Source: Oncomelania hupensis (Eukaryota; Mollusca; Gastropoda; Littorinimorpha; Pomatiopsidae). From it: DNA of 64,000 nucleotides. Numbering within the stretch: position 1 is the stretch's first letter; every line of letters starts with the position of its first letter. This document shows positions 9,801 to 62,950 of the stretch, one piece after another. The stretch spans positions 20,762,286 to 20,826,285 of the forward strand of contig CM072513.1 in assembly GCA_036898135.1 (NCBI GenBank), given 5' to 3'. The translations under genes and the position numbers were made by a program. Under the pieces are notes generated by a model, which made no database searches, was not told the DNA's origin, and saw nothing but the letters and a program-made list of their open reading frames with translations.

Positions 9801-12800
9801 AGCCAACAACCACAACCAATAGTGCTTGGACAATCAGAACTTCAATTCTTTGTGATACTTGTGACATGTGACTAAAATACAGCTGTTCTGTCACAAATTT
9901 AACAAACAAAATATTTTTGCTGGAGGCAATGTTTGAATGATATCAGTGCACAATTTCTCGTTTTAATAGTTCCTTTTTAATGTTTAAGTGTCAAGTTAAA
10001 TAAATTCACAAGCTATCCTAGCTAAATTACACATATTTGTGACATTTGTGACAAAAAGTGACATTTGTGACACACGAAACATAAGAAATAAAGTGTGACA
10101 AAACAACTTGCACTCACCGTTCTCGTTTCCCTCCATTTTTGCACATGAAATGGAGTGCTCGCCTTTGAACTACTGAAAATCCGGTTTACAAAAAATGTAG
10201 ATTGAAATATGGGTGCCGTTTGGTTTTCTTGGTAAGAAGTGAAGTGACATTTGTGACAGTGTGACAAAAATATTTGAGTTGGGCATATTTTATTAGCTAC
10301 TGCAATTAATTTACAATATTGTACTTTTTATTGAAGCTAATAATGAGTACATTTAACACCATCAAAGCTGTTCCAATCCAACTTTTAGACTCGTGGCAGG
10401 ATTTTTTTTTAGTGTGAGAGGTGTGTGACAAAAATTTGTCACAAATGTCACACGATTTCTGTAGCCAATATTCCCATAATTATGCAGCAGTATGGGGTAT
10501 AAACTGCAACAAACTTTAGAATAATATGTTTCTTGTTGTTTTCAGTAACATTAGCAGGAATATAACACCTTTATTTGCAAATATTTGATCAAATGTCAAG
10601 CACCCCTCTTTGTGTGTCATTTTGCACAGCAATTTCCACCCCAAGTTCACAGTATATTATTTTTTTACTACCTAAAATATTGTTTCCATGCGTATGACCA
10701 GCTCAGATTCTCAAGTAAAATATGTATGATTCAAAAATCTCTAAATTTCAAACAATAATATGTAATTTTAAACTAGTTATGAATGTTTATGCATAGCTAG
10801 TATTGCTTTGAGCACCTTTTGACATCACGCCAATTAATAATTATTTCATACTAATATAATTTAATAATATTAATAGTGATGATGATTATAATGCTGATGT
10901 ATGTTATATCGCTGTAAGTGTGTGGGGGTGGGAAGGGATTGGGTGGTGTTGATAACAGTGTGGCAGCTGTGTTTTAGGTAGGAGTATCTCGGTCACCCGG
11001 GACCTTGAACCTTAGGTAACATAGGTTTGATTATGTGTGACTTCAACTCAAAACAAGTTTGTGCCTGCTGGACCACAGATGCAACCTCTTGAGCAGCTTT
11101 ATTAGGTATAAGTGAGCTCAACAACAGCAGTCCTATCCTATCCTATCCTACCCCGTAACTCAAAAGTTGTTGGGGCACCACAGATAATACCCCCGTTGGG
11201 GTGCCGGGGGTTTCAGTATAAATAGTATCCCCACTTTCTGGAAATTTAGTGCTTTAAATTCCCACTGTCGCTGTCTTTCTCATTTGCTCTTTCTCAGTCC
11301 TGCTCTGTTCTATCAATCTGCTATACTATCTTCTTCTTCGCTAGACCAGTCACCTACCTTTTTTCTTGAAAACTCTTCCGGGACAAGACTCCTTGTTTGT
11401 GTATGAGTTCTGTTGGATCAGCTTGGGAATATTGGACGCTTTCTGCCAGGTGGTCACTAGGGCTTCCTATGATGTTATTATTTAGCAATGTAGGCATTTT
11501 ATATGTATGTGTTTTCTTCATAATTTATAATGATGTTTGTATTCTATTTTGTTTTTGTAAACGGGGGTTCGATAAGTTGGGGTGAAGCCTCAGCCGTCCC
11601 CTGCGTGGGATGTCTTTATTGTAAAGTGACTGGCTGGTGGAGAGCTTTCGGTTTTACCACTAGGGTTGTTTCAGCAGATCTTTTATGCGGATTGGGGGTT
11701 GTCCGGTCCTGATTTGGCTCGGAAGAGTCCGCTGGACCTAAAGCAACAATTTTGTAATGTAATGTAACCACAGATAATAGTTTAACCAGCTTTGTGATCC
11801 CCCTCCTCAGCAACCCTCATGGCTTTGCTCAGTGTTAAGCCAGTCCATTCTTGAATGTTGTCCTCCCACCTCTTTTTCTGTAACAGCAGTCCACTACCTT
11901 GAATTATAATTCAAGATAGCAGTCCAGTACCTTGAATCATAATTCAAGACAGCAGTCCACTGCCTCCAATTATTACGACAAGTGGTATAAAATGGAGGAC
12001 AGCTAACATTCAAAAGTGACAATAACCCAAAAAACTAATAATTGTGTACATACTCCCTAGGAATGCTAATTTCCACAAAGGGAAGACAAAACCACACTAT
12101 GCAAACTTTGTACCTAAGCTCTTCGTCAGGCGGACATACGCAAGAGATAACAACTTTGTCCGCCTGACGAAGAGCTTCGCTGGAAAATGGGCACTGTGTG
12201 GTTTGGTCTTGTCTTCATCGACATGAGCTTTCCTTGACTGTTACGTACACGTTGCTTTTTTTATTATCATTACCGCAAGTAGTAGTTTCTGGTTTATTCC
12301 TTTGATCGTGCAGATCAGTATGCTGTCCTTTGAGTTTGACGACGAAGAAGGCGATGAAGGTGGCGATGTGGACAGTGAAGAAGAGAGGGAGAAGATCAAA
12401 GCGAAGGAGGAAATGGCGGCCAAGAAAGCTGCGCAAAGAGCGCTGAAGAAGAAACGCTTCGGTAAGCCCCTCATTGTTATTAATGTCTTTGTTTTAAAAA
12501 AATGGCGTAAGCAGAAGGTGTCTCGCCTACAAAGTTAGGACTGAAGTCTATTGACAGCGTGTTGGATATACACCGCATTAGATTCTCTCCCTTGGGGAAT
12601 GATAGGCAAGATTTATCTCCCCTTCTCTGATGCCAGTGGTTTTGAACAAAGCTATGTAAAAAAAAAAAAAAAAAGTTTAAATCTCCGTCAATTTGTTCGT
12701 CATAACAATGAAAAAAAGTACTTAAATAATAATATACGAAAACTAAAGATCTTAAATAATTTTTTTGGGGTGTTGTCAGGTATGAATCCAGAAGTGGACA

Positions 12801-16247: not shown

Positions 16248-17159
16248 AAACAGAAACTGTAGTATTTTTTTGTTGTTGTGGGTGGGGGAGGGAAGGGGAG
16301 AGAGCAGTGTGAGTTGGGGGGTTGGGGGAGTAGAAGCTGTGGGAAAAAGGGTTGTTGTCTCATCATCATCATCCTTATAGCCATCTGATTGTGATTGTCA
16401 TTGTTATTGTGAAAACATTTGTCACGTGAAAGTTAAATTATTGGTCAAGAACATGTTTATTGGGGCATGATTTTAATTCTAGACAGACTAATAGTCTGGT
16501 GGATAACCAGTTCTAGAAAATGAGGGGAAAAAAATTTCATAGTGGCAAACTGATTTTAATGTATTATTAATCCCCTAAGACCATCAATCTAAAATCCCGA
16601 ATTTATCCTCTGGAAAGCTGCACAATATGAAGATACAGCCGTTTAAAGATATTACCGTTTGAGAATCCTCCTACTAGCCCAGTGCAGAAAAAGCATGGGT
16701 AAATTTATTTTTCACCAAAGAAAGTTGTTTCTTTCATAGCATATGATGTTTGCAGAAGTGTAATAACCTGTGGGAAGTGAAATTTAAATAAAATACAGTA
16801 GAAACTTCATATTATGACACAAAAATGGTGCAAAGAACATGTTCCGAACTACTTTCTTATAATACACAGCAACAAATACAGATCCAGGTTGTGTAGAGGT
16901 GTTAAAAAATCAGGGTATTAATTGATGTGAAAGAATTATTTGAATGAATGACAAATTCCTAGTCAGCAGTTCAGCTAAATATGTAATGATTCTATAAAGG
17001 TTCAATGATTGGAACTAATAAAAGAACATTACCAAGACAGAGAGAGACATTTGACATTTTATTGCGTAAACAAATGTTCATTGCAATGGGAGATGGTGGG
17101 AATGGGATTATAATAACATTTAAAATTAAAACACAGCAGAACATTGTACAGTTATAAAA

Positions 17160-17187
17160 AGGGGGGGGGGGGGGGGGGGGGGGGGGG
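17160..17187 (+). repeat. Poly-G tract
   Basis: About 27 consecutive G, followed by (GA)n, inside the large transposon between its left end and the gene stop. Such tracts are unstable and prone to assembly length errors. Confidence 0.9.
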
Positions 17188-17447
17188 TTGAGAGAGAGAG
17201 AGAATGGGGGAAACAAACATGTCAAATAAAATTAAAATGAGTTCAATCAATAAACCTGTGTTCACTATAGAATTCAAGCATGTGAGATGTCTGAAGAAAT
17301 AGTAAAGTTTATGCAGTCCAGGTAAATAAGCAGTTCACATGATTCTGTTTCAGTTATTCAAACTAGATTGTTCTCTTTTCATAATGCGTCCCGATACACA
17401 TGTTACAGTACATAACACCCTGAAGAGACATATGTATTGCAGTGACG

Positions 17448-20400
17448 TCACCATTCCTCGTCAGTGTCAGATTCATCGTCACTTGCATCACTGTTGTCAG
17501 AATAGTCACTGCCACTGGAATTCTCACTAACCACATCTTCTTGTCTGTTGCAGCAGTCACCGCAGTTACACATGTCACCACACCTCAGATTTTTTTTTTT
17601 GCAACCACATGTGCCATCTACACATTTCCGTTTCTTGCACTTACACCCAACACTGGAAAGAAGTTTTTCTGGTGCAAGTGCTTGGGTAGTCCACTTGACA
17701 ACAAGCTTTCCATTGCAGACTTCCCAGCCAAACCCTTCTGGAGATGGTGCACTGATGTTGGACTGAAGACACCGTCTGTAAATGGCTGCCTGGTAGTTAG
17801 CTCTCAATGCATGCTGTATTAGGCAGTCTTGCGTTGGAGGCAGCAATCTGTCATTTGCTGTTCCCTGGCAGAAGATGTTGTAGCGGGCACTGTTAATGCA
17901 GCTCTCCTTCTTTCGGCCGAACAGATGGCAGACAAACTTTTCCAAGCTTTCCAATAATTGTTTATCCGGTGTCCAATCTTTACCAAGGCGAGCAAAAGTC
18001 TGTTCAAACTCAGGTTCTTCTTCCATCAGTTTCAGGGCTTTGGATTTGCCCTTTCCATGGAAAGCACTGATGGAATCACAACCTGTATAGACGTGCAGTC
18101 CAACAAGTGCTGTGCAATAGGAAGGAGAGAAATGCATGATCCTGTTAAAGTCCAGAATTCTGTTATATTTCAGAACGATGATCAGCTGGGCATTGATTTC
18201 CCTACACACAGATGCACTGATCACAGCCACGTCAGTGTCTGGACTCATAATGGTGATCACATCATGGGTCATGCTGGCATGCCTGGCATGTAGGAAAAGA
18301 CGCGTGTCAGCTTCCTCATGGTCTGAAGTCAAATCCAGAACAGGCTGCACTGTTACAATGCCATCAGTAAACTGGATCAAGTGGCACATCTTTCCATGTG
18401 TAAAATATAGCTTCACGTGACTGCTGAACTTCTTGCACCAGTCTGCAAACAAGAATTCAATGAAGCTGGTCTTGTTCTCACTACTAGCCAGAAATTTTCT
18501 CCACTGTTTTGGAAGTGGTTGACAGCCTTTCATGATTTTTATGGTTGAAATCCCACCTGCTGCTCTCCGTTGTCTTTCACAACCTTTGATGCTGACAACA
18601 GGGTAGGTGTCTGCAATGAAATCAACGCGGTCAGAATTCATCTGTTGGGCCTTGTGAAATACCTTGTCCAAAATTTTCTGAGACAGCTCCGCAAATGTCT
18701 GACAAGTAGACGTTTTCATTGTTTGGATAAATGCCATGCCATCAATGAGAAAGGCACCTGTTCTAACCCAAAGCATGGTTGCCTCCTCGTCTGCAACATT
18801 AGCCTCCTCAAAGACCTCCATTAGTTTTGCTTTGTTGGTTTTCACCAATGACCCATCATAATGTCCCAGACACGGAGGAACTGGTAGCAGTGGATAAGAA
18901 AGGGTTTCTTTGGCACTGGCACTGTCGGCAGCACCCAGGTGAAGCATTCTAGTAAGGAGAGCTTTGCCTGCTTTCAGAGTAACATTTTCCTGCTTTCCAG
19001 ATGAACACTTGACCATCTTTCCCACGTCTGCGAATGTGGACAGTTTCAAGCACTTGATTGGAGCAAATACACTCTTTTCCTTTTTTTCCAGCCTCTCCTT
19101 TGTGAATAAGTTGTAGGCAGCCTGACCCTTTTTAGGTGCATCCAACAGATCGTCCTGAACCTTCTGTTCAGCAACAACACCAGAGGATATGTTAATGAGC
19201 TCATGATCCAGCAGCTGAAATGGGTTTACCATAGCATGGATGGTGTCCACCACATCAGTGACATGTTGCTGAAAGACAGAAATGGAACGTGGCTTCAAAT
19301 GCTTCGATACGGTCTCAGCTTCTGTTCTGAACTGTTTGCCACGGGCTATTTCTTCACAGTGGCTAGTGATCTCTCCTCTGATATGGCTTGTCAAGATCCA
19401 GCGATAAACAGCACCCTTCTTTCTTGTCTTTCCAATGAGACCACCTTGTGTTTTGGAATGTCTGTTTACAGTCTGCTCTATCACTTGGTCACAGGCAGTC
19501 TGACAAAATCCTATCTGCTGCTGCCGCTTCACACCAAAGTCCCCACATCGAAGTTGCAAATCCACTTCTGGGTGAGTGACTGCAAGGTTTTTCATTTCCG
19601 ACAAGTAGCAGGGAAGATACCTGGCATAGTTTACCCTATCATAAGCAAAGAAAAGTGGAATCATCTGCTCAAGACTCTCCAGGTGCAGCTCCCAGTTGCC
19701 GGTTCTTGTTGCTCGTAGGAACTGCTGAAGCAGGAAGACCAAATGTATGTAGGACAACCAGAACCCAAAAGTTGGATTCTCACGGGCTTGCTCTTTTGTG
19801 TATGCAGTGAAGCTGTTCAGCAGAAACAAGACGTTCTCACCAATTACATGCTCTTGAATCAAGGATGGGTTAGTGCTGAAAAGGCTGATCAACTCTCTGG
19901 CACATTCTTCAGCTTTGTCTCGACTGTCATTAGGAAGAGTATTCAGAAACTCCAACCACATCAACCGGCCAAATGCTTCTGACACCACATTGTGCGCACG
20001 AACAGATCTGAAACAAATGGTACAGCACAATATAAATGGCATGTACACTTCTTGATTCCCACTCCCCTTATAGCTTATAAATACTGTGCAAGTTCAACAA
20101 GACAATTATAACCCTCAAGACTCAAGATATGCACACAGACACTTACAATGAAAGTGATGTTTTTTTTTATCATGTTGGGGACACATGTTATGAAGGCCAT
20201 TTTGAAAAGTTCAAAGGTTTTTTCTTCATATAGGCATATAAAAGACAGATAATAATTGTAAAGTGGCAGCTGTGATGACAGACCATCTCGAAGAGACCAT
20301 CTCAAATCGCAGACCATGTCTCAGGGTATACTATTAAACTCGTAAAAGTAATTGCAACGTCAGACCACTTTTGGGCCACACCAATAATAATAAAGAAAAT

Positions 20401-23400
20401 ATAAGGCCAAGTGGCTGTCTGTCATCACAGGTTCCACTGTGTATTTGGTGTTTTTTCCCTTTATATTTTAAATTTTAATTTAGTTACTGTTTTTTGTTTT
20501 ATTATAATATTACACTTGTTTTGGTTTTGTCTAGTTTTCACAATTTTGTTTACCTATTGTAATGGTGGCCTGTCATGACGCCTTGAATAGAGCCAGGGGC
20601 AACAAGACCGCTTTCCACCATTACATCCTCCAGTCCAGCATCTCGAAATCTCTTCCCCAAAACAGCAAGAAAACACATCACGGTGTGGAATGCTCCTAGA
20701 CGCAGGACAAGGCGCTGCTGCAGAAAGTCATCACTCCATCGGATTTGCTGTGCTTTGGAGTACAGTGCCTGATCCATAACAAGCACAACAGCTGGAAGTT
20801 GCAGTTCATCAGCAATCTCAACACTACGATGCAAAACAGTGTTACAAGTGTCAAGTTCAGTTGCGTTTGCATTGATAATGGGTAGATAACCAACTCTGCT
20901 GAGCTTCAGCGTGTTGAAATCTTTGGTGATAGCTTCATTGAAACCAACCCAGCCTGGTAACGACGTTGGGCCCAACAACTTCATCAGACAATATGCAAGA
21001 TCAAGTGCCAGTGATATGTTTGACTGTACATACTCTTCAGTAGCTGGAATTGGCTTGATGACAGGATTTGCTTCTCTTTTCTTTGTGAAAGGAATAATAT
21101 TTTCTCGTGGAGCAGAACAACTCTTCTTGTAACTCCTCTGCTTGTTCTGTGTGTCACCTTGCGTGGCATCTTCTCTAATCCTTTGAATCAAGATCCCGGT
21201 GGTGCAGTGTGTTGTGCCTCTTCCAGTGACTGTCTCCTCATTAAAATCATTATTGTCCCAAACTATGATGGTTGGCTCCCTTTTCTGGAAACCAGATGGA
21301 ATGCAAAGTCCACTGTCTCTGGCACACTTTTCTGCCAGTGCTGTATCCTGCTCCAACACCGACGAGTATGAGGCACCATGCCCCAGGCCATGCAGAATAT
21401 CAACCAATCGCTTAGATCCAGTAATGTGTCGAGTGGCCACACTTAGCATCAGCTGCTTTGGAGAGACCCGCTTGTTATTAAGTCCCATCAAATCATGAGC
21501 CACGGAATGTACTTTCACCTGGCTGTCACTCTTGTCTGCTTTCAGAGAAACACGAGCAGTCTGAATGTCATCATCAGTCAAATCACATGCCCAAGCCAAG
21601 AAGTTGAACAGCAAATCAGGTACATATTCCTGAAAACTTTCAGTGGAAAAGTCCTCACCTGTAGGAGGCCAACACGTAAGACGCCTTGGAGTAGCGAGCA
21701 CATGTTTCAAAGCTAATGCACCTCTATACAGATCTGACAGGAAGTCGTGGCTGTCAATATAACAAACAGGGGTGTTTACATTTTTTAGATTTTTTCTCAA
21801 TACTTTCATGGGTGACAGTCCATCCTCGCTTTCACTATCCGTGCTTACTGTGAACCCTCCAATAGAGCACTCAGAAAGTGATGTTGAAGCACATGGCCTA
21901 ATAAATGATTCTGCAGTGTTTGGATTGGACGTTGTTGCCATATCTTCCTGCTGGTGGTGCACGTTGCCTGTCACATCTGAGTGGTTGGTCTTGGGATTGT
22001 GTTTAACAAATTCCTTGTAGCAACTTCTGTGATACCTGCACAACACACAAACAAAACACTAAGTTTGTTTTTTAAATTGTATTATAACTTTATAAAAATG
22101 TGTGTGTACTAAATAATTGGGTGCATGTGTGCGTGTAGTTTTGTGCGTGCATGAGAAATGGAATTAATCATGATTTTTTCACAACAAAAGGCATAACTGC
22201 AACAAAATGTACTATTAAGTAGTTTGTGACTGAAAAATCATACGCAACATTTCATTCCCAGAACAAAATGTCTGGTGACGAAATGTAAAATGTCACACTT
22301 CTGAAAAATCTGCACATATATGAGTCCTTGACTAGACGTACCATTTATAGATCTGAATACATGTACATGCAAGTATATAAGGAAGACATTATTTATATTG
22401 TTGTGATTTTTTTATGCATGGAAGACAAACATATAAAAGGGTTTTATATAAATCTAAATGCCATGAATTTTTCTGGAAAACAATCGGGTATTAGAAGACA
22501 GTGTTATTCAAAACGTACAAATTGGGGAATAAATCACATAAGGAATTTGGAAATCACGTACAGAAAATTGCTGGCGGGAGTATGAACACGTAACATCAAT
22601 GACTAAAGCCGGTAAAGGGTATGAAAACGAACATAATTTCAGGATGGAGGCATAAACATGTTAAGGTTTTGAAACTGGAGGCTTTCTCAAAAATACAGTA
22701 ATACCTATAGCCTGCCTAGACACTTGTGCAAACATTACTAATGTATTCAGAATGTGAGAATGATGGTTGTAATTTAAAGCTTACAAATAAATAAATAAAC
22801 AAATAAAACTTTTTTTTTAAACAGTCCTATGGTTGTCACCATACTTTCAGTTATTTTTCTGTTTTTGAAACTGGTAGTATGAAAACCCCTTGCAATTCTA
22901 GACATGCATATAAATTAAAATACCTCTGCCTAAAAACAAATGTGTATAAGAATAACTATATCATAACACTGGTAGATTTGTAACACTGATACAGTGGTAG
23001 ATTTGTTTTATTAGTGTGCCCACATACTTGACTTCTGTCGCCGCAGGGTCCTGATCACGAACATATCGAAGAACATGTTGAGCATTCTGCATGAGAGCTG
23101 CTTTCAGGAGACAATCTGAACTGCTTTGGCACTGAAACAAATGGAACGGATAACTAAAGTAAACTATGTATGTACAGTGACTCCTGCTAGCAAAGAACCC
23201 TCAAAACAACAAACCTCTTTCCAGAAGACACCATCATGGCACCAAGTGTTAACAAACTACATAAATGTTCCCATTAAAGAATGGACACCTTTACGCAAGG
23301 GCTAGTCCCAACATATCACGCACCCACCATTTATTAGTCCTAACCTAACACCTAACAGAACCCTAGGCTAAAACTGACAACAAATTCTTAAAAGAGGCCT

Positions 23401-24194
23401 AAAATAATGTGGGGGTAAATAATAGCCTTATACTGTGGTGATTTTATTTTTAGGGGTGGGTGAAAGGAATGTCAAAGACATTTGGGGAGGGGTAGGGGAG
23501 ACCTTGGTATGGGGTCACAGAAGTGGGGTTGGGGTAGGGGAGACCTAGGTAGGTGGTCACAGAAATGGGGTTGGGGTAGGGGAGACCTAGGTAGGGGGTC
23601 ACAGAAGTGGGGTTGGGGTGGGTAAACCATGAGATGCTGGTTTCCTCTTGGAAAGAAAATTAATATTTTTTGTAATACGCATTGGATTAGCCTAATTGGG
23701 ATACAAATTAAGCCATTACAGAAACTGACAAAACAACAGCAATGAGTACAAGCTGACTTTACTTACCACACTCAACAAATCTCTCTGTCGCTTTCCTTGA
23801 GAACATGTCCATTTTTCCTTCTTTTCGCAAATAACGCACACTTCAGGAAACAAGTTGTAAGTTTTCCTGATGGTAGAAGCAAATGCGCTGGAGGACCGAA
23901 GTTTATTGGGTGCACTCAAACATTCTGATTCACTCTTTATTGCAGCGTCAATTCGCTTCTTAACTGTAAATTTTACATAACAATGTGGTAAAACAGCGGT
24001 TTCTCTACCGCGTCACCTGTCTCCAAACTTTGGATAAAATTCCGGGCGATAAAACATTCTTCTTTGAAAGGAAGGGTACACCATACTTTGGCCTTTTCAG
24101 TGGCTGTTTCCCTAGTTGTTGGCGTGAATGCAAATAGCTCATCGCTTTCCTGAACGTTTCCAAAATGCAGTGCACACGTAATACTATCGTCCAT
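17448..24194 (-). CDS. Putative transposase: Cys/His finger, XPG-like nuclease signature, CXC domain (1506 aa, 5 exons)
   Basis: Minus-strand exons 24194-24017, 23963-23767, 23131-23028, 22035-20554 and 20007-17448 join in phase (1, 0, 2, 2, stop). The start is ATG at 24194 (MDDSITCALHFGN); an in-frame ATG at 24245 is possible. An N-terminal Cys/His finger shows CVIC (102-105), C113, C126, C132 and YHRSCYKEF (161-169, split by a splice junction). Near the C-terminus DHEEADTRLFLH, SPDTDVAVI (about 1242) and YTGCDSISAFHGKGK (about 1295) resemble the acidic active-site and H3TH segments of FEN1/XPG nucleases. A cysteine-rich CKCKKRKC...CGCKKK...CNCGDCC block (about 1442-1473) is a tesmin/TSO1-type CXC DNA-binding domain, followed by an acidic Ser/Asp tail. 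There are no internal stops. It belongs to a family seen in many copies in invertebrate genomes with no assigned function. A minus-strand AATAAA lies at 17063-17058. Confidence 0.8.
23487..23625 (+). repeat. G-rich tandem repeat, unit ~51 bp, ~3 copies
   Basis: The unit contains GGGGTTGGGGTAGGGGAGA then CCTAGGTAGG and GGTCACAGAA. Runs of four G recur often enough to form G-quadruplexes. It lies in the intron between exons 2 and 3 of the transposon gene. Confidence 0.85.
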
Positions 24195-24475
24195 TGTGGA
24201 AAACGACAACATTGACGAAACCTGTTTTCTTTTACAGAAAATCATGGAGTTTACTTATCTCCCCTGGTAAAATATGCCCCTGCGTCCTAGTGAATCCACG
24301 CATAAGAAAAAAATATTTCAAAAATTCACTGTGTGTTGTTGTGCAGGATACAAGAGGATAAATTTTGACAGAAACATTGTAATAAACATATCTTCACATT
24401 CCAACAATCAGATCTTTGCCACCATTCCGAAAAAAAAAACCGTCAAGATAAATTGGGTTATCCACCAGTCTATAA

Positions 24476-25970: not shown

Positions 25971-26595
25971 AACATTACATTACATGATTATTGCTTTAGG
26001 TTTAGCGGACTCCTCCAAGCCAAATCAGGACCAGACAACCCCTGATCCGCATAAAAGATCTGCTGAAATAACCCTAGTGGTAAAACTGAAGGCGGTCCAC
26101 CAGCCAGTCACTTTACAATAAAGACATCCCACGCAGGGGACTCTGAGGCTATTCTCTATTTTATCAAACCCCCGTTTACAAAAACAAAATAGAATACAAA
26201 CATCATTATAAATTATCAACAAAACACATACATATAAAATCATTTCATATGTATGTGTTTTGTTGATAATTTATAATGATGTTTGTATTCTATTTTCTAT
26301 TAAATGCCTACATTGCTAAATAGGAAGCCCTAGTGACGACCTGTCAGAAAGCGTCCAATATTCCCAAGCTGATCCAACAGACCTTGCACACAAATGAGGA
26401 GTTTTGTCCCGGAAGAGTTTTCAAGAAAAAATGTAGGTGACTGATCTAGCGAAGAAGAAGATAATATAGCAGATTGATAGAACAGAGCAGGAATGAGAAA
26501 GAACAAATGAGAAAGACGGCGACAGTGGGAATTTAAAGCACTAAATTTCCTGAAAGCAGAAATACTATTTATACTGAAACCCCCGTGGGGATTTT
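25971..26595 (-). mobile_element. Non-autonomous retroelement, copy 2
   Basis: Flanked by a 22-bp target duplication (25949-25970 and 26596-26617; one mismatch; begins TTGGCAAGAAAA). The tail on the minus strand is an ATGTA-type repeat. A perfect 50-bp inverted duplication (26186-26235 and 26247-26296) lies in its middle, where other copies have a single arm. Confidence 0.85.
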
Positions 26596-27564
26596 TTGGC
26601 AAGAAAACTTTTCTAGTTAAGCAAACAGTTTATTGTTGTGTAACACATACCCAGCCAGTAAAAAAATGGAGAAGGGAGGGTGGGAGAGAACATAAGAAAT
26701 GATTATTTCCACACAATTTTGGTTAAAAACAAGATTGAAGTATAGCACAACAAACCTTGTTTTGTTAAAAATCAAAAGTACAAGTTTTTTGTTGTTGGAA
26801 GCAACGTTATACGAACACAAGATCAGAACACTTGACCATCCCTAAAAAAGTTACAGCAAGACAAAATGGTATGGATGCACAATGACACATTAAATGACAA
26901 CGCTCCCATGGACATTGGCCACTTACAGACATCAAGACTAACTTCACATACTGCAGGCCTCGAAGACTGTTCATATACTGCAAACATCAAAGACTAATTA
27001 ATATATTGCAAAACATCAAGACTATTCATAACAATGATCACATTTTGCAATGTACAATACAACATGAATACAGTAACAATCATCTTCATTCACCCAAAAC
27101 ACAATGTTGAATATCTTTGTTACTAAGTACAGGCTCAATCATAATACTTAACTGACACTTAAGGAATGCCAGTCGTTAAATAAAACGAAAACTGACCACA
27201 ATGAAAGTAATGGCAGAAGTGCGTTTTCCACCAAATCAATTCAATATTTACACATTGTTGAAGAAAGATATTAAATTGAAATACCGAACACTGAAGTGAA
27301 ATTGAAAAAAACTAAGACTAAAATATACTTGCCCACAAGTATATCAACTAACAAGTTAGCATCTCCCTTCTATGTCTCTGTCGACGTGCGCGTACAACCG
27401 GTTGCTTCCCTTTACATGCTTTGCGCTCCATAGCGTCGTCGGCCTAAAATAATTTTTTTAGAAACTTCAAAACCCAGGGGAGTTATGGGTAGGGAAATCC
27501 TTTTCTGAAATGACGTCGGCAGGACTCTTCGCGATTAGTGCATGGCATACGAGACACACGCAAA

Positions 27565-27751
27565 ATGGCGTCACAAGAAGATTGGTTAGATCTGAATTCG
27601 TCTAATTTGACCTCGCATGCTGCTAAAAAACAATGTAATTTGAATTTGCTATCACAAATCAAAAGAGAGCGAGACCACAACAAAGTACAACGAGCCAAGG
27701 CGACGCAAACACTCAAGGCCGACAGAACAAAAAGCACACAAAATACAAGAG
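27565..27751 (+). CDS. Exon-like ORF inside the 967-bp element (unknown)
   Basis: ATG in a favourable context (caaaATGGCG) opens MASQEDWLDLNSSNLTSHAA..., a 62-codon basic, hydrophilic stretch. It ends at a good donor AGAG|GTAAGT. I do not recognise the family. No matching downstream exon is apparent before the element ends, so it is probably a stranded first exon of a lost transposon gene. A host first exon captured by the TIRs cannot be excluded. Confidence 0.4.
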
Positions 27752-27964
27752 GTAAGTACCCGTGACCATACAGTCAATAAAGTAGGCCTAACCACCATTG
27801 CAAAATAGGATTGATCATCACCATGATTGAATTTTTCCACCCCACCTTCCAATCGGTACGGAATCGAGCATATGCTCAAATCATCATATCTTTGACAGAA
27901 CTTGCATGTGCATTATAGAGTGTGATGCAAGCGATAAATGAACCATCACATCGAAGCGACTCAC

Positions 27965-28130
27965 GATCGCCTGCACTGAGCTCACATATATGTGTGCATG
28001 TTTCTATAAATCCATCGTGTTCTCCTTCGATAATTGAGCAAAGCCTTTGTTCACTACCAAAACTATGCAGTTCCTCTCCCAACTTTCGTTTAATTTCAGC
28101 CAGCACATCTTCGCGAAAAATGGCGACCAT
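27965..28130 (-). CDS. Second exon-like ORF inside the 967-bp element (unknown)
   Basis: The minus-strand ATG at 28130 opens MVAIFREDVLAEIKRKLGEE..., 55 codons to a potential donor GATC|GTGAGT. It faces the ORF at 27565-27751. The composition is protein-like (amphipathic, Cys in CTHIC). The family is unknown and no continuation is visible. Confidence 0.35.
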
Positions 28131-30525
28131 GACTTCAACCGTAGCTAGTTATCAGTTACTTCCCTTGAACAGATTTCCCAGAATTCTCTATTCTATTTTT
28201 AGGTTTGGGATAGCTTGTGGATAAAACCAAGGGCAACGGGACCACCGCACGTCGACTGGGGGCAATACGAGATACTAACTTGTTAGTTGATATACTTGTG
28301 ACTTGCCTCATTACCACAAAATAACATTTTCCTTCAAACTTACAAGAATAGCAATTCCTTCTATCAATCTCAAACCTAACACTTGGGTCGAAAGCATTGA
28401 AAAACAATCATCATGGAAACCATTTTATTGTTGTTACCAAGAGCTGAAATTTTGAATTAAAAACGCTGACATCTCAGCCCTTATGACACAGTTAATTTCT
28501 ATAGTTATTTAGTTACGTTATCAAGCAAGTAAGACTGTTGGCTCTCCTAACTGACCTCTTATACTTATAATACAGGTGATGTGATACAGTAAGTAGCAAT
28601 GTGATGTGATACAGTAAGTAGCAATGTGATGTGATACAGTAAGTAGCAATGTGATATTCTTTTGCCGTGATACAATGACGGTGTACAAGTCGACGTTGCG
28701 TGAAATATCTTTTTTAATTTGTAACGTTTTTTTTTTTAAATCTGTTCTTTCTATGCGTGAAGCAAGTTCTCTAGTATGTTGTTATATGTACTTGGAGCCA
28801 GTAACAAGTTGAAGTCGAAGTTGAACTTCAAGAAGTTGAAGTTGAAAAGCTAACACTTAACCTTCATTCAAACAAACGTCTTAACATTCATCACGTTTTA
28901 TGAACATTTTACAGAAATCACATTGCTTCATCAGATATTGGTCCACAAATGCTGAGGCACCTAAGAACTTTTTTTTTTTTTTTTTTTTTTTTAAATGTAT
29001 GCATGCCATCTGTGCATTATGATCACTTGATACCAAAGCCTATTATCAGTTTTAAACTTACAGCAAAAAAAACAAAATACTCATACCGTGTCACTCAGTA
29101 TGTGTATTTTCTTAGAATTAAAAATTGTCAATTAAAGCAAAATTAAAATGGCCCTTTCACAAGAATAGCAATATAAAATTAAAAAGTACAAATTTAAAAA
29201 GCTTCAATTTTCCTCACTACAATTACAATGGAATAATTTACTCCTAACAAAATACAACTTATTTTCATGTGAAAGAAACCGAAGGAAATCAAGACACAAT
29301 TCTTGACTTTGGGTACATTTACGAACCAAACCTCCGACTTGCTTGCATGAAACTCGACTCGGTGAAGACAAATTAAATCTCCCATCACAAAATAACACAA
29401 CCTTCATTAAAGTTTAAAACCAAATGAAGAGAACAAATTAAATCACTTTCCACAAAGTGCCACTTCTACGCCAGTCAATCATTTTCACAAAGTACGACTG
29501 CTATGTGAACGAAATCACTGGTCACAAAGTAGGACTCGCTATGCCTAAACCCAAACTGGTTGAGTATAACTACTGCACGATGTCATTGGTACAAAACAAT
29601 AGCGAACAGGATTTTTTCCCCAATGTGCATTCCACTTAACGCAAGAGCCACCATTAGGTCCTTGATGAACTGCACTGACAAATCTTGTAAAACAAAACGC
29701 CTCAACAGAAATGGCAACATCCACCAAAATACATAAAAGCCCATGTTATGACCAGCATAACAGTGATTTCCTCACCAAAACAATTGTTGCAACCGCACTA
29801 TTACATAGTTAATGTAATTTGGGAATATAATAAATGACAACATTACAATGTTTTTGTTTTTTTTTTAAGTGGAAGGGAACGTGGTTTTTTGTTTTTTTAC
29901 CAGCAATAAATAAATACAATAATAATAATAAAAACGGCACAAGAAAACCACTTCACTGTACACAAAAAAATTAATGTTTTATAACCTACACACAGATACA
30001 ACACTTCAAAATACATATTTCTTGCCCATTTTCTGAAAACATTACCATTGTACATTCAAAAACTGTCGACAGGAAATGTAACATGTAACATATACTGCTG
30101 AAATAACTCAAAAATAACACTGCCTTTAACTATAAAGCACAAAAACACACTGGACAGTTCAATAAAAGTTCAACATTGAGTACATTTAATTGAATTCAAA
30201 AATAAATTTTCAAAAAAAAATTGCGTACATTTCATTACAAAATTGAAAATAAAATTAAAACCGAATTTTGACACATCACATCCATCAAAACCAACTTCAT
30301 TAAACATTAAAGTCCAAACCCTATTTCCATCACAGATTCCTGCATCACCTTGTTCTGTCATACCATAATACTTCTGTTCAACTGTTGGTACTCCAAACAC
30401 TATACACAAAGACAAATAATGAAACAGTACCATTACACACACACACAATGATGAAAAACTACACATTTTTAGTAGCGGACTTGTCCTATTTTACAGAACA
30501 GCTAAATATTTCAGTTAGCTCCCAA

Positions 30526-31398
30526 CAGAACATTACTTTTATCATTTTTTGTAAGTAGTACTGCGTCTGCATGAAACAAAATGCATACAGTGGTAGAAAG
30601 TCATTGCTGGTCTCTTGATTAAAATCTGGCTGTGACGGACAACAGCATTGATTGATTGATTTATTGTTGCTTTAGGTCCAGCGGACTCTTCCGAGCCAAA
30701 TCAGGACCGGACAACCCCCGATCCGCATAAAAGATCTGCCGAAACAACCCTAGTGGGAAAATTGAATGCCCTCCACCGGCCAGTCACTTTACAATAAAGA
30801 CATCCCACGCGGGGGACGGCTGAGGGTTGACCTCAACTACGCGAACACCCCGGTTACAAAAACAAAATAGAATACAACCATCATTATAAATCATCAACAA
30901 AACACATACATATAAAATGCCTATAGTGCGAAATAATACAATCATAGGAAGCCCTAGTGACCACCCGGCAGAAAGCGTCCAACACTCCCAAGCTGATCCA
31001 ACAGACCTCATACACAAACAAGGAGTCTTGTCCAGGAAGAGTTTTCAAGAAAAAAGGTAGGTCATTGATCTAGCGAAGAAGAAGAAAGTATAGCAGAGTG
31101 ATAGGACAGATCAGGAATGGGAAAGAGCAAATGATGAAGACAGCGACAGTGGGAATTTAAAGCACTAAATTTCCAGAAAGTGGGGATACTATTTATACTG
31201 AAAACCCCCGGCACTCCAACGGGGGTACTGTTGCCGCAGTGAATCTGTCTTGCCTATAAAGGAAAGACAGGTTCCTATTTCAGAACATTACTTTTATCAT
31301 TTTTTGTACTACTGCGTCTGCATGAAACAAAATGCATACAGTGGTAGAAAGTCATTGCTGGTCTCTTGATTAAAATCTGGCTGTGACCGACAACAGCA
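30526..31398. repeat. ~120-bp direct duplication flanking retroelement copy 3
   Basis: 30526-30647 and 31281-31398 are near identical (one 4-bp indel and one substitution) and directly flank copy 3. They behave like an unusually long target-site duplication. A third, inverted and shorter piece of the same sequence (TTGTTTCATGCAGATGCAGT) lies at about 32298-32317. Confidence 0.85.
30648..31272 (-). mobile_element. Non-autonomous retroelement, copy 3 (5' truncated)
   Basis: It begins on the plus strand with TTGATTGATTGAT (the tail) and ends at about 31272 in 'gaaagacaggtt', short of the full 5' end. It is about 90% like copies 5 and 7 by eye. It is inserted between the ~120-bp direct repeats. 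Confidence 0.85.
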
Positions 31399-31399
31399 G

Positions 31400-31640
31400 C
31401 CCATAATGGTACAGGACGCAGTCAATACAAAAAATTTCACAAATAAAAATTTGATTTTCTTTCCGTCTTCTAATAGCGATCTCCCTGCCTTTACACCACC
31501 TGTTTGAGTGATGGATGTGTGTTTGGTATGTGTGAGGGTGGATGAGACAGGTGAGCGTGTATGTTGGTATAGGTCGCCGCGCTTTGAGCCTGAATGATTT
31601 GGGGTAAGGCGCGTATAGCATCCTGTATTATTATTAATGA
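31400..31640 (-). repeat. Dispersed repeat containing the GGCTCAAAGCGCGGCGA block
   Basis: This matches 34640-34870 in inverted orientation over most of its length (GTATAGC, TCAAAGCGCGGCGA, CACGCTCACCTGTCTCAT, GTGGTGTAAAGGCAGGGAGA blocks). The 13925-14010 sequence 'gactgcatccaataccgttattgaagggagg' shares its far end. It is a common interspersed repeat with no coding capacity seen. Confidence 0.75.
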
Positions 31641-31777
31641 CACTTGGACTTAAGTGGGCTGAGCGCGAACTCACTCCGGGCAATGGGCTGCTGTCGTCAT
31701 TGCGAGATGAAATTGAAGATGAGCAATTAAATTTTTCTGCTGTAGGAACGACAATACGTTTTTTGTTAGTCATTGTT

Positions 31778-32292
31778 TACAGGGTCCAGCAGACTGCAAA
31801 GAGTCAAATCAGGACCACAGCATGGTTGAAAGAGGACTCACCCCTGATCCATATAAAATATCTGCTCAAACAACCCTGATGGTAACACTGAAGGCACTAC
31901 ATTAGTCAGTCACTGTACAATAAAGGCAGGGGACGTAGAGGCTGTACTCTAAACTTATTGAGCCCTTGTTTACAAAAACAAAATAGAATATCAACACCAT
32001 TACAAAATATATTAACAAAAGACATACATATAAAATGCCTACATTGCTAAATAATAATACTACAGAAAGCCCTAATGGCCATTTGGCAGAAAGCGTCCAA
32101 TATCCCCAAGCTGACCCAACAGACCCTATACACAAACAAGGAGTTTTGGAATAGCTTTCAAGAAAAAAGGTAGGTGACTGGTCTAACGAAGAAAATAGTA
32201 GATTGATAGAACAGATTAGGAACACGAAAGAACAAAGGAGAAAGACAGCAACAATGGGAACTTAAAGCACTAAATTTCCACAAAGTGGGGGA
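31778..32292 (-). mobile_element. Non-autonomous retroelement, copy 4 (older subfamily)
   Basis: It starts 'acagggtccagcagactgcaaagag', sharing with copy 6 an internal insertion (about 40 bp) absent from copies 1, 2, 3, 5 and 7. It is more diverged than the others. Confidence 0.75.
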
Positions 32293-33284
32293 CAAGACAT
32301 TTTGTTTCATGCAGATGCAGTACTGTTTACAACAGTCATCAGCTAGTACCAATAGGGACTTTCTTTTTACCCATTGTATAGTGCGCCTAGACACTGTTCC
32401 TCAGCAGGTGGGGTCAATTATCAATGCAGACGCAGCTGTCGAAAAGGTTTCCGTGACTAATTACACTGTAAAATAACACGGGGAAAAAGATATAGAAAGA
32501 GGGGAGAGTGAGAGATGAGAAAAACAAAGAAAACGAGAAAAGGAATCAAAGGTGGGAAAGTAAGAGAAAGAAGGAGCAGAAACAACTAGAGAAATAAAAC
32601 ACACACAACCACACACATACACGCCAAGTCATAAACAAGCTTCAAATTAGGTTGACAAGCACCAATTATAATCAAAATGACTAGAATTAATCATGAACGC
32701 AACAAACAATGCATTCTTAATTTGACAAAAATCATTCCACTACCCACTGAAGAATACAGCAACTCTGTAGAAAGAAAATAGGATGGAATAACAATTGAAA
32801 TAATAATGATAATAATGTTATATTTTGCTACAAAACGCAAGTCAACATAGTCTTGCACCAACAAGTTGAATAACATTAAAAAAAAATTTAAATTATAAAA
32901 AATTAGTGCAATGTAAAACTGTAAAAAATGTGCACCCCCAAAAATTGTGTTTCTGACTTGAATTGTGCTAGGTATGTGTTGTCTGTTAGTAAACAATTTA
33001 GTGCACAGTATCCAGGTACACTTGTTCATCACAGCAAGTCAAAAAAAAAAAAAAGAAAAGAAAAGAAACGGTGTGGTTTATTTGTTTAGCGGTACAACTT
33101 TTCACTATGCATTTGATTTTGCAAGTAAAATATAGAGACAATGAACACAATTTTACATGGTGTAAATAAAAACGTACACAGTACAAATGCTTGGTCTAAA
33201 GCTACAACAGAACATTATTTTGTAACTTGTCACCTATACACGTACAAATACCAACTCGTCAAAAGTAATTGTACAACTACTTTA

Positions 33285-33490
33285 ACCATCATACATCATC
33301 ATATAACTGCTCCAATGATCATACATCATACAACTATTCTAATCATCATACAACTGCTCAAAATAATCATACATCATACAACTGCTCCAATCATCTTACA
33401 TCACCATACAACAGTTTCAATCATAACACAAACTGCTCCAATCATCATACATCCTACAACAGCTCTCTCCAATCATCATACATAATACAA
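33285..33490 (+). repeat. Degenerate minisatellite
   Basis: A unit of 20-25 bp resembling CATCATACAACTGCTCCAAT is repeated about nine times with drift. Confidence 0.8.
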
Positions 33491-34491
33491 GCGAGCACAT
33501 TTATTCGCATAATCACACTTCTAAATCATCAACTCAAAATTCAAGAAATTCCTTCTGCCACACACATCCTTGCAAACTATTAACACAATCAGAATGCACA
33601 ATGCAGACAATGTTCAACGTTACACTAGACAGTGGCTCTGCCCAAAGGCTTGTTAAAAAGGTTGGGATCTATCAGGTGAGGACACTGAAACACCCGTTGT
33701 TCACTTGGCGCACTTTGTGTTAACATTATTAACGCAACTTCTATACAACCACCTTACATACAACACAGAAATTGCTCTCCTCTTTGGTCGATTTAGAAAC
33801 TGCTCCGGATTTCTTGCTGTGTTCTAACTTCACAATCATCTGTCATTGCCTCATGTCACGCATGCACACAAAAACAATAAAATTAGAACACCGGCATTCA
33901 ATGTTAATCAAAACTTGCGTAAAATTAGAAAATTCGCAACATAATAATACTATGTTTTCGATATCATTATCTATTTAACATAACAATAACTATTACTACT
34001 ATCAGCCTGTTTGCGAAATGTCATACACAAGCTGATGCAACCACATGCATGTGAATACTTAAGAGAGGTGCTCGTAATAGTCATCGTCAGAGATCAAACA
34101 AAGTTTTCCACACAAATAAAATTCAGCAAAACGGAGAAACGAAGCAAGCCATGTTACAGGTTGCAATGTTACAGACATAATGGACAAACAACTCTATATA
34201 AAGGCCACTCGCTAGAAAGACACCACACAACATTGCACTAGTAGATGTACCAAGTTCTTGACGGTTGGATGGGGGCCCGATACTGCCATTTTCGTTACAA
34301 AAGCACTGAGGAAGAGAAGCATATCTTGCAACAAAACAAACTGCCAATATTGATGACAAATACATCGCATTACATGACATGACAAAGCACTTGTGACATT
34401 TATGTAACGAAACTAATGCAGATATTGATGAAATATAATTGAAGCACTTAGCAAAGGGAAGTTTGGAAACAACACTACAGAGCCAGCTTTG

Positions 34492-34493
<2 letters not shown>

Positions 34494-34571
<78 letters not shown>

Positions 34572-34590
34572 TGGGTCCCGCAAATACACA

Positions 34591-34633
<43 letters not shown>
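34494..34633 (+). repeat. (AT)n and (CT)n compound microsatellite
   Basis: (AT)n runs from about 34494 to 34568 and (TC)n from about 34593 to 34633, directly followed by a dispersed repeat (34640-34870). Confidence 0.95.
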
Positions 34634-34634
<1 letters not shown>

Positions 34635-34639
34635 ATAAT

Positions 34640-34935
34640 AATAATAATACAGGATGCTATGTACGCGCCTTTCCCCAAGGCTCAAAGCGCGGCGATCTAT
34701 ACCAACATACACGCTCACCTGTCTCATTTACCCTCACACACACCAAATACACATACATCACTCAAACAGGTGGTGTAAAGGCAGGGAGATCGCTATTAGA
34801 AGACGGAAGAAAATCGAATTTTTTATTTTTGAAATTTTTATATTGACTGCATCCTGTACCATTATTGAAGGGAGGAAACCGGAGTGCCCGGAGAAAACCC
34901 TCGGTGACCTCAATAGTCTCGTACCTAAGTCACAT
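34640..34935 (+). repeat. Dispersed repeat, inverted mate of 31400-31640
   Basis: Same family as 31400-31640. It continues into 'ccggagtgcccggagaaaaccctcggtgacct', a segment also seen in degenerate form at 13980-14030. Confidence 0.75.
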
Positions 34936-36009
34936 ACGTATATATATATATCAGTAATAACTAATGGAAATACGGAGTCAAATGAAAACAGAATACAATC
35001 AAGTCAGTATATATGCTTAGCATAGAACTCTCTCCTTATTGCAGACCTCCAACCTAACACAAGTTTTGGCTTTGAAGATCAACAAAATCAAATTTAGACA
35101 CTGGGTTTCTTGAAAGACAAACTTTTGTACTGAAAACATCTACATCCACATTTAACATTTTAAAAATTTCAATCTCAAGGAATACACAGAATATTTGTTC
35201 TTTAATAAAATTTAAATGTTCGCACTAAACTTCCTGTAAACGGTGTCTCAAACGGACAATATTTCAATGTTGCAATGCTACAGAATTTTCAACAAAATGA
35301 AAGTAATTATTAATATGTGAAACTAGGCCAGGAAAAGGGAGGTGCCCATGAAAAGAAAAAAACAATGTGTAGGCAAGATGAGGGCGTTTTAAAGCATTCA
35401 AAGCAAATGTTTTTGCCAATATACGTGTTTGTTTTTCAATAACATGAAAATTAATTTTAAAAACTTCAACGGGACGGCTGTGATGGTCAGAGGCAACATT
35501 TTTCGTCAACTAATTTCATACACCAAAAAGTTCCATTTAAGCCGTACTCAATCAAGTCTATTTTATGCCTATTTTATTGTAAGCATAGCTAAAAGGTCTG
35601 TATTTCTACTGTCGAAGCATACACATCAATTTCACGCTACTTGTACCAGGCTTCATTTCTCATGGGTCTACAAAACTGTGCATACCAACCTTGCGTCGGT
35701 GCACACAAACACACAATTATAAAACTAGAACCAGCGAAACAAACGGTGGAAGACATCACAACAAAATGATACTGTGTGTCATACACACACAAATGATACT
35801 GTGTCATATTCAATTCACACCAAATCCCATAGTAAATGCATTGAAATCACACTAAAGAATGCAGACAAAAAAAATACTAAAGAATGCAGACAAAAAAAAT
35901 TATATAATTTTAAACAAATGTCATCTTTAAAGCTATGAATGACTGTGCACTATGGCAATGTAAAACGTTGCAATATGACGTAATGCCAGTTCAACTTCAT
36001 GGTGAAGGT

Positions 36010-36729
36010 TGATTGATTGATTGATTGTTGCTTTAGGTCCAGCGGACTCTTCCGAGCCAAATCAGGACCGGACAACCCCCGATCTGCATAAAAGATCTGC
36101 TGAAACAACCCCAGTGGGAAAATTGAATGCCCTCCACCGGCCAGTCACTTTACAATAAAGACATCCCACGCAGGGGATGGCTGAGGCTTTACCCCAACTA
36201 CTCGAACCCCCGGTTACAAAAACAAAATAGAATACAAACATCATTATAAATTATCAACAAAACACATACATATAAAATGCCTATAGTGCTAAATAATGAC
36301 ATCATAGGAAGCCCTAGCGACCACCCGGCAGAAAGCGTCCAACACTCCCAAGCTGATCCAACAGACCTCATACACAAACAAGGAGTCTTGTCCAGGAAGA
36401 GTTTTCAAGAAAAAAGGTAGGTCATTGATCTAGCGAAGAAGAAGTTAGTATAGCAGAGTGATAGGACAGAGCAGGAATGGGAAAGAGCAAATGAGGAAGA
36501 CAGCGACAGTGGGAATTTAAAGCACTAAATTTCCAGAAAGTGGGGATACTATTTATACTGAAACCCCCGGCACTCCAACGGGAGGGGGGGGGGGGGGGGG
36601 GGGACTGTTGCCGCAGTGAATCTGTCATGCCTATAAAGGAAAGACAGGTTTTCAACTGGGGCTTTCACTTTTCCCTTTTTAGGTTAGAACAATCTACAGT
36701 GGCAAGATTGCTCATGACCCCAAGGGGTA
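36010..36729 (-). mobile_element. Non-autonomous retroelement, copy 5 (full length, 720 bp)
   Basis: Exact 11-bp target duplication ATGGTGAAGGT (35999-36009 and 36730-36740). In sense (minus) orientation it begins ACCCCTTGGGGTCATGAGCA, has TATAAATA about 170 bp in, and ends in (CAAT)n. A run of about 22 G replaces the usual GGGGGTAC at 36582-36603. Confidence 0.92.
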
Positions 36730-36766
36730 ATGGTGAAGGTAAGCCAGCTGAAATTTAGTTAATTCT

Positions 36767-38070
36767 TCATTGCTTACAGGGTCCTGCGGACTGCAAAGAG
36801 CCGAATCAGGACCACAAAATCAATACTACAACTTGTTTGAAAGAAGACTTGCCCCTGATCCGTATAAAAGATCTGCTGACAAAACCCTAGTGGTAACACT
36901 GAAGACACTCCACCAGCCGGTCACTTTACAATAAAGGTATCCTACACGGGGGACGCTGAGGCTATATTCTAATTTATCGAACCCCCGTTTATAAACAACA
37001 AATTAGAATATAAACATCATTATAAAATTTCAACGAAACACACACACATATAATGCCTACATTGCTAGATAATAATAACATAGGAAGCCCATAGTGACCA
37101 TTTGACAGAAAGCGTCCAATATTCCCAAACTGGCCCAACAAACCTCATTCTCAAATGAGGAGTTTTGGAAGAGTTTTCAAGATAAAAGGTAGGTGACTGG
37201 TCTTTATTGATTGATTGATTGATTGATTGTTGCTTTAGGTCCAGCGGACTCTTCCGAGCCAAATCAGGACCGGACAACCCCCGATCCGCATAAAAGATCT
37301 GCTGAAACAACCCTAGTGGGAAAATTGAATGCCCTCCACCGGCCAGTCACTTTACAATAAAGACATCCCACGCAGGGGATGGCTGAGGCTTTACCCCAAC
37401 TACTCGAACCCCCGGTTACAAAAACAAAATAGAATACAAACATCATTATAAATTATTAACAAAACATATACATATAAAATGCCTACATTGCTAAATAATA
37501 ACATCATAGGAAGCCCTAGTGACCACCCGGCAGAAAGCGTCCAACACTCCCAAGCTGATCCAACAGACCTCATACACAAACAAGGAGTCTTGTCCAGGAA
37601 GAGTTTTCAAGAAAAAAGGTAGGTCATTGATCTAGCGAAGAAGAAGATAGTATAGCAGAGTGATAGGACAGAGCAGGAATGGAAAAGAGTAAATGAAGAA
37701 GACAGCGACAGTGGGAATTTAAAGCACTAAATTTCCAGAAAGTGGGGACACTATTTATACTGAAACCCCCGGCACCCCAACGGGGGTACTGTTGCCGCAG
37801 TGAATCGGTCATGCCTATAAAGAAAAGACAGGTTTTCAACTGGGGCTTTCACTTTTCCCTTTATAGGTTAGAACAATCTACAGTGGCAAGATTGCTCATG
37901 ACCCCAAGGGGTGGTGACTGGTCTAGCGAAGAAGAAGATAGTATAGCATATTGATAGAACAGAGCAGAAATGAGAAAGAGCAAATGAGAAATACAGCGAC
38001 AGTGGGAATTTAAAGCACTAAATTTCCAGAAAGTGTGGATACTACATGTATTTATACAGAAAGCCCCGGT
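36767..38070 (-). mobile_element. Non-autonomous retroelement, copy 6 (older, interrupted by copy 7)
   Basis: 36767-37203 and 37925-38070 are the two halves of one diverged copy, split by the nested full-length copy 7. It is related to copy 4. Confidence 0.88.
37204..37912 (-). mobile_element. Non-autonomous retroelement, copy 7 (full length, nested)
   Basis: Inserted in copy 6 with an exact 12-bp target duplication GGTGACTGGTCT (37192-37203 and 37913-37924). This gives element ends identical to copy 5: sense start ACCCCTTGGGGTCATGAGCA and a (CAAT)n tail. There is no ORF longer than about 70 codons. The B-box-like GGGGGTTCGA lies internally; a Pol III or Pol II origin is unresolved. Confidence 0.95.
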
Positions 38071-44627: not shown

Positions 44628-58603
<13,976 letters not shown>

Positions 58604-62805: not shown

Positions 62806-62950
62806 AAAACTCAATAGAATTAAAAAAAAAAGGTAACCTTCAGGAGTGTGAAAATTACCGCACCATCAGTCTCTTTTCTCTATTTTTAAAACTCAATAGA
62901 ATAATTTTTTAAAAAAGGTAACCTTCAGGAGTGTGAAAATTACCGCACCT
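62806..62950 (+). repeat. Tandem duplication of ~80 bp at the LINE 5' edge
   Basis: AACTCAATAGAAT...GGTAACCTTCAGGAGTGTGA...ATTACCGCACC occurs twice (about 62809-62873 and 62889-62954); only the second leads into the open RT frame. Confidence 0.85.

Follow-up and report, generated by a model that had tools for sequence, protein, structure and literature searches.

An Academ-like transposon of Oncomelania hupensis encodes a likely transposase that appears to combine two different DNA-cutting domains

How does a transposon move whose protein seems to carry a nuclease of the FEN1/EXO1/XPG type? The question is raised by an element at 16492-24472 of the window (the whole 64-kb stretch of Oncomelania hupensis DNA that was analysed), which has 17-bp inverted tips, is flanked by duplicated TAA and contains a gene of five exons with an open reading frame; the initial annotation had proposed a cut-and-paste system with an XPG-type rather than a DDE catalytic core. 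The answer appears to be one long protein with two different DNA-cutting domains, one transposase-like and the other FEN1/EXO1/XPG-like.

Tips, duplications and genomic copies

The left terminal inverted repeat, TAGTCTGGTGGATAACC (16492..16508, plus strand), and the right one, TAGACTGGTGGATAACC (24456..24472, minus strand), are identical in 16 of 17 bases, with one mismatch, and are enclosed by the two copies of the TAA target-site duplication (16489..16491 and 24473..24475, neither assigned to a strand). When the tip pattern, with W at the mismatch, is allowed up to three mismatches, only the two element ends match in the 64-kb window. Shuffled windows contain a mean of 0.25 matches, and two of 100 shuffles gave two or more, so that the window taken alone is only moderately convincing; it is their matches throughout the genome, with the 3-bp duplications found there, that establish the tips as real. 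Inward of the 17 bp the two ends are weakly alike (41 of 100 bases in register), and a block, GTGGCAAA, recognized by eye, is common to the inner parts of both. Near the left tip the window copy lacks 9 bp that are present in the 14 other aligned copies.

In the 1.45-Gb genome at least 22 matches to the left end and at least 20 to the right end were found, dispersed; the 17-bp repeats with one mismatch occur at both ends of 19 copies, and every one of the 19 copies in which both tips were read is bordered by an exact 3-bp duplication; these duplications represent 18 independent sites and vary in sequence. The flanks of the copies are unrelated, except for one segmental duplicate and for repeats shared in other registers. 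Between pairs of the 13 full-length copies the mean difference is 0.23%, and 103 of their 107 variable positions are singletons (the remaining four are shared); such singleton-dominated variation is what a single recent burst would leave. An empty paralogous site was detected, this being the single site examined to an answer, and the element family is recently mobile. The initial annotation had described an intact element with these tips, this duplication and a stop-free gene; the sequence agrees in each point, and dispersed copies, duplications, low divergence and the empty site identify it as a real transposon.

The same data bear on the idea that a host gene was merely caught between unrelated repeats, or that the copy is domesticated. 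Relatives of the protein that carry a name are, almost without exception, entered as uncharacterised or hypothetical proteins, as might be the case for host genes, but copies dispersed over 18 independent sites, with their duplications, rule this reading out, and the nonsynonymous to synonymous variants among copies (40:13, raw counts without a neutral expectation) are unlike the protection of a host gene; its probability is negligible. Among the 15 copies read whole (five pairs with ends 10-20 kb apart and two partnerless left ends were left out), the gene is open from end to end in three, namely the window copy, L029 and L035, and broken in 12.

The gene and its predicted domains

The gene lies on the minus strand and consists of five exons encoding 1506 amino acids without an internal stop, with GT-AG borders at all four introns. 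Exon 1 (24017..24194) begins with the ATG at 24194; exon 2 (23767..23963) contains the first cysteines of an N-terminal Cys/His-type motif (consensus of the relatives, CxxC...YHxxCYxxY), which may bind zinc, and is followed by exon 3 (23028..23131). Exon 4 (20554..22035) encodes the conserved D420, D423, D581, H610 and E634 of an RNase-H-like (DDE) region, and exon 5 (17448..20007) the remaining helical middle part, a FEN/XPG-type nuclease, a CXC domain and the stop codon. Joining the exons at the last two splice junctions re-creates YHxxCYxxY and GxHYNR, motifs that are also conserved among relatives. Because no other long gene was found in the element, the product is likely its transposase, as had been suggested from the sequence alone.

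The nuclease call is strongly supported at the level of predicted structure. For the C-terminal part (residues 1050-1440; 17649..18821, minus strand) a structure model of the window protein and a fold search returned the FEN1/EXO1/XPG (Rad2) fold, likewise in a relative, and seven acidic residues in this fold are conserved. Conservation was read from two alignments, A1 and A2, which hold 84 of 113 relatives (the other 29, mostly with lower query coverage, were left out); the aligner scattered the start of the window fragment in A2, where the model is also less sure (pLDDT 69). Identity to FEN1/EXO1/XPG nucleases is roughly 10-16%, and the domain is here part of a transposon protein. By sequence, no nuclease appeared among the Pfam matches of the window protein or in PDB searches with exon 5 and the family profile. 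Exon 5 of the window gave nothing useful in PDB, and the profile, at E ≤10, matched three sequences: LIN54, HMGB1 (E 0.018, interpreted as a hit to acidic sequence of low complexity) and a hypothetical protein (E 0.11). A library of viral structures yielded two matches at E ≤0.001, both XRN nucleases.

The nuclease is followed by a Tesmin/TSO1-like CXC domain (residues 1441-1475; 17544..17648, minus strand), matched by Pfam PF03638 at E 0.0037 with 18 bits, which is below the curated cut-off of 23.5. The cysteine pattern is present, the family profile matches the CXC of LIN54 (5fd3) at E 0.00044, and in a relative the domain is paired with LIN54 over 37 columns (Foldseek probability 1.00, E 1.1); a resemblance to the CXC of this DNA-binding protein is supported by profile and model together. 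The FEN1/XPG-like core and the CXC domain of the initial annotation both recur in the predictions. Two of the conditions under which that annotation would have failed, an unrelated fold and a lack of further copies with these tips, were checked, and both results speak for it.

Its claim of an XPG-type core in place of a DDE core is not supported, since the same protein contains a second conserved region (residues about 412-653; 20556..21281, minus strand), which precedes the first acid of the nuclease by about 440-660 residues. In the model of this region, which is that of a relative, P0007, and not of the window protein, strands and helices follow the RNase-H-like order (pLDDT 91). D420 is conserved in 81 of 83 aligned sequences, D423 in 83 of 83, D581 in 85 of 85 and E634 in 77 of 85, and strand order and conserved D/D/E residues together fit a DDE-type region. 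It is overlapped by a weak match to Pfam DUF6589 (residues 540-789 of the window protein), below the curated cut-off; among six relatives scanned, DUF6589 exceeds the cut-off in one (P0059) and has no match at E ≤1 in two.

That the XPG-type domain is the sole catalytic core, and that transposition proceeds with no DDE chemistry at all, could be argued from the strong support for its fold and acids, which are better conserved than E634, and from the whole-model fold search with P0007, which gave no strong DDE match among solved structures (RAG1, HzTransib and ISCth4 at probability ≤0.16). Because the FEN-like domain fills this search, the lack of a strong match speaks neither for nor against a DDE-type fold. 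Against the sole-core reading stand the RNase-H-like strand order with D420, D423, D581 and E634 in the same protein and the counting of Academ, in the parts of the sources concerned, among the DDD/E superfamilies (PMC9587614, PMC9004415, PMC10294476). It is rejected as the leading reading on account of the RNase-H-like region, and we consider it very improbable.

Placement within Academ

AcademX elements encode a nuclease of the XPG type. As published descriptions go, the window element is probably an autonomous cut-and-paste DNA transposon and represents a new family within AcademX, a lineage of the Academ superfamily, which had rightly been named at the outset; the novelty seems to lie at the level of the family, the superfamily being known, and not in a new kind of transposon. 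According to the passage on these lineages in PMC10045372, AcademX elements encode a nuclease and make duplications of 3-4 bp, whereas AcademH elements have a helicase in place of the nuclease and duplications of 9-10 bp, so that a nuclease-bearing Academ lineage with short duplications is already known. The window family resembles AcademX, whose superfamily is described as DDD/E, in its predicted FEN/EXO1/XPG-type nuclease and in the 3 bp duplicated (19 of 19 copies), and it has the terminal inverted repeats expected of an Academ element; from AcademH, of the same superfamily, it differs by its short duplications, and no helicase was found among the Pfam matches of the window protein.

The same genome contains a second family, whose protein is 29-30% identical. 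TAGTC-type tips and duplications of 3 bp border all four of its copies for which both tips were read; seven were tried, the other three having an altered right tip (one) or a left tip absent from the small piece fetched (two). For a family with 40% identity the right tip was read in both copies; a left tip did not turn up within 6 kb of fetched sequence, and a run of N is present in one of the pieces.

Kinship with Academ is here drawn from descriptions, not from reference Academ protein sequences, which leaves some room for a separate superfamily with convergent features. This appears quite unlikely, as three features, the nuclease, the DDE-type region and the length of the duplication, fit the AcademX passage (PMC10045372), and as Academ is reported from animals such as bivalves, with 100 curated consensus elements and a mean of 5565 bp (PMC10294476); compared with that mean of 5.6 kb, the window family, with 8 kb and five exons, is long. 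Outside Academ, KolobokE, KolobokD and KolobokP likewise unite a DDD/E transposase and an accessory nuclease in one element, but their nucleases, as far as the source describes them, are of the PD-D/ExK, DEDDh and His-Me finger types (PMC9587614).

A possible division of labour

The Cys/His motif and the CXC domain might help to bind the element ends, where the RNase-H-like site would make the cuts and attach the 3′ ends to the target strands at points separated by 3 bp. At the same ends the FEN-like domain could trim 5′ flaps or the non-transferred strand, work that would otherwise be left to host FEN1, and gap filling would produce the 3-bp duplication.

In a further scheme, with two cutting cores, the RNase-H-like site would cut and join the transferred strand and the FEN-like domain would cut the second strand, so that the nuclease helps to fix the stagger of 3 bp. 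Against it speaks that the majority of DDE transposases produce their stagger with no additional nuclease. One polypeptide carries both sites in conserved form, and the AcademX passage links duplication length (3-4 against 9-10 bp) to nuclease against helicase (PMC10045372), which would favour it; we regard the scheme as doubtful. The same doubt applies to its stricter form, that of two independent cores in one chain, where the FEN/XPG-type cut (cleavage of the second strand, or removal of flaps where the ends are joined), and not the RNase-H-like site or host FEN1, would determine the 3-bp duplication.

With open-gene copies, a recent burst and two predicted active sites, the family is a practical candidate for studying the role of the nuclease in Academ transposition. 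It also offers a likely identity for a large set of animal proteins which are listed as uncharacterised in the databases.

The element, its copies and their age

The transposon occupies positions 16492-24472 of the window, with tips TAGTCTGGTGGATAACC and, inverted, TAGACTGGTGGATAACC, and is flanked by TAA on both sides; its minus strand carries a gene of five exons with GT-AG introns, which encodes a predicted transposase of 1506 aa free of stops. The inverted tips, the TAA duplication and this gene structure had been described in the initial annotation, which is borne out. Splicing is further supported because the motifs YHxxCYxxY and GxHYNR, conserved in relatives, are rejoined across introns 3 and 4. 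Immediately inward of the left tip (near 16513), 9 bp present in all 14 other aligned copies are missing from that of the window, apparently lost between CTA repeats; its exon 1 is 6 bp longer than theirs.

The host genome (1.45 Gb, 428 contigs) yielded at least 22 left-end and at least 20 right-end matches; the 20 right ends all have a left counterpart on their own contig, which leaves two left ends unpaired. One pair (L042) has lost its right tip; in all 19 others the 3-bp target duplication is identical on both sides. Two of these 19 copies share their flanks as a segmental duplicate, which leaves 18 independent sites, and the chance of 18 random 3-bp matches is near (1/64)^18. The duplicated triplets vary (TAA, GAA, ATC, TAT, ACA, TTA, CAA, TAG, TTT, TCA, AGT, AAA, TGA). 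Besides the segmental duplicate, three cases show similar flanks, either in different registers or inside one locus, which is the pattern that repeats would give. The two ends of five pairs are separated by 10-20 kb, presumably owing to later insertions; there the ends alone were read, and were paired by position, orientation and matching duplication. The family has been mobile in the past. One copy, L030, lies in sequence that by eye resembles a retrotransposon reverse transcriptase, and the sequence at C6:71470255-71470561 matches the whole of its joined flanks at 89%, with the element absent; the junction bases differ slightly, and the site is a paralogous empty site, not an allelic one.

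Fifteen copies, including that of the window, were read whole, 13 of them full-length. The latter differ pairwise by 0.06-0.42% (mean 0.23%), and the columns with a base in all 13 comprise 103 singleton and 4 shared variable ones, a star-like pattern expected from one recent burst. Relative to the majority, coding variants number 40 nonsynonymous (3 of them stops) and 13 synonymous, a ratio that looks like neutral decay. With the exon boundaries of the window copy applied, the gene is open from end to end in three of the 15 (the window copy, L029 and L035), and the other 12 are disrupted by stops, frame shifts or large deletions.

Elsewhere in the window, a 652-aa open frame at 52200-54158 (minus strand) matches the Pfam Mutator-like transposase PF20700 (E 3.3e-67) and is a second transposase gene, apparently unrelated to the first; a 275-aa frame at 62905-63732 (plus strand), which contains a reverse transcriptase domain (RVT_1, E 2.6e-41), is perhaps a LINE remnant. 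At 56109-57712 a long array of short GACA/GATA-like units gives rise to spurious long open frames, and a dispersed repeat recurs in several copies, direct (D7-D14) and inverted (I1-I7), at 25972-38057 and 11188-11750.

Relatives and sister families

Residues 380-1380 retrieved 113 homologues and a family profile 335, of which 120 are covered by the listing. Hosts named among the matches listed are all animals: echinoderms, fishes, one hagfish, a tunicate, a hemichordate, a lancelet, a soft coral, a sponge, a limpet, spiders and a beetle. The listed proteins are for the most part nameless; the names among the matches listed are nearly all "uncharacterised" or "hypothetical protein", the others being generic CXC/CRC-domain labels, one unnamed product and one VIP36 label, and "transposase" occurs in none of these names, some of which are abbreviated.

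Within its own genome the exon-5 protein matched 55 places, among them further families that share about 37-40% and 29-31% identity with it. The 29-30% family (L052-L065; contigs C5, C8, C2, C10, C3 and C4) has tips TAGTCCAAGATRTAAGG, with C at position 4 in one of four two-tipped copies; seven copies were tried, and all four in which both tips were read show exact 3-bp duplications (GAA, ATA, AGG, TAT). Three copies compared over the 3' part are 98.5-99.1% identical, and this is a second recent family in the genome. Both copies read from the 40% family end in TCTGGACTA. The tip 5'-TAGTC is thus common to the three families, except that the right end of the window's family reads TAGAC and single copies are altered. 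A 30% relative at G000:C14:261782-263992 (minus strand) falls within one open frame of 1525 aa and could represent a gene variant that has few introns or none.

Predicted domains and probable affiliation with Academ

Residues about 412-653 contain conserved D420 (81/83), N421 (83/83), D423 (83/83), D581 (85/85), H610 (85/85) and E634 (77/85). In the model of a homologous protein, P0007, strands at 124-131, 144-153 and 253-261 are followed by a helix (268-284), a strand (290-294), a helix (296-306), a strand (316-320) and helices at 322-337 and 342-348; the first acids lie in the first strand or at its end, the second directly follows the fourth strand, and a helix following the fifth ends in the glutamate. 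Such an order of strands, helices and acids is that of an RNase-H-like transposase core. Pfam DUF6589 matches this region of the window protein weakly and below cut-off (E 0.011); among six relatives scanned it lies above cut-off in one (P0059, 31.4 against 27), below it in three and is absent in two. A whole-model search returned RAG1, HzTransib and the ISCth4 transposase only at probability <=0.16, the part of the model covered being unstated. The DDE-type reading is supported by the predicted pattern and by the Academ literature, the fold search falling short of proof.

Academ is one of 20 superfamilies listed as having a DDD/E transposase (PMC9587614), as likewise stated in PMC9004415 and PMC10294476, and one Academ-1 gain is recorded in Daphnia mutation lines (PMC8594854). 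As far as described in PMC10045372, duplications of 3-4 bp go with the nuclease of AcademX and those of 9-10 bp with the helicase of AcademH; with 3-bp duplications and a predicted nuclease fold the window's family resembles AcademX, and it differs from AcademH in duplication length. By these published descriptions the preferred interpretation is a new family within a lineage already described. The initial annotation had named the element Academ, which holds, and had an XPG-type core replace the DDE core, which is not supported, since the RNase-H-like pattern with D/D/E is found in the same protein; apart from that replacement its finding is sound and accurate.

Proposed mechanism

The C-terminal CXC domain matches LIN54 with the family profile (E 0.00044), and that of P0007 does so in Foldseek (probability 1.00, E 1.1, 37 columns); the LIN54 entry matched is a DNA complex, which makes a role of the CXC domain in binding transposon ends likely by analogy. 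The data show the structure of the element, its mobility in the past, the length of its duplications and the predicted nuclease fold, and every catalytic step is inferred from these. Most likely, the CXC domain and the N-terminal Cys/His motifs would bind the ends, the RNase-H-like core would perform cutting and joining, and the FEN-like domain would process 5′ flaps at ends or joints. Alternatively, the second-strand cut might be made by the FEN-like domain, whose nuclease fold is predicted by modelling. The family gains interest from uniting a recent burst and copies whose gene is open with two predicted active sites, each of which can be mutated on its own.
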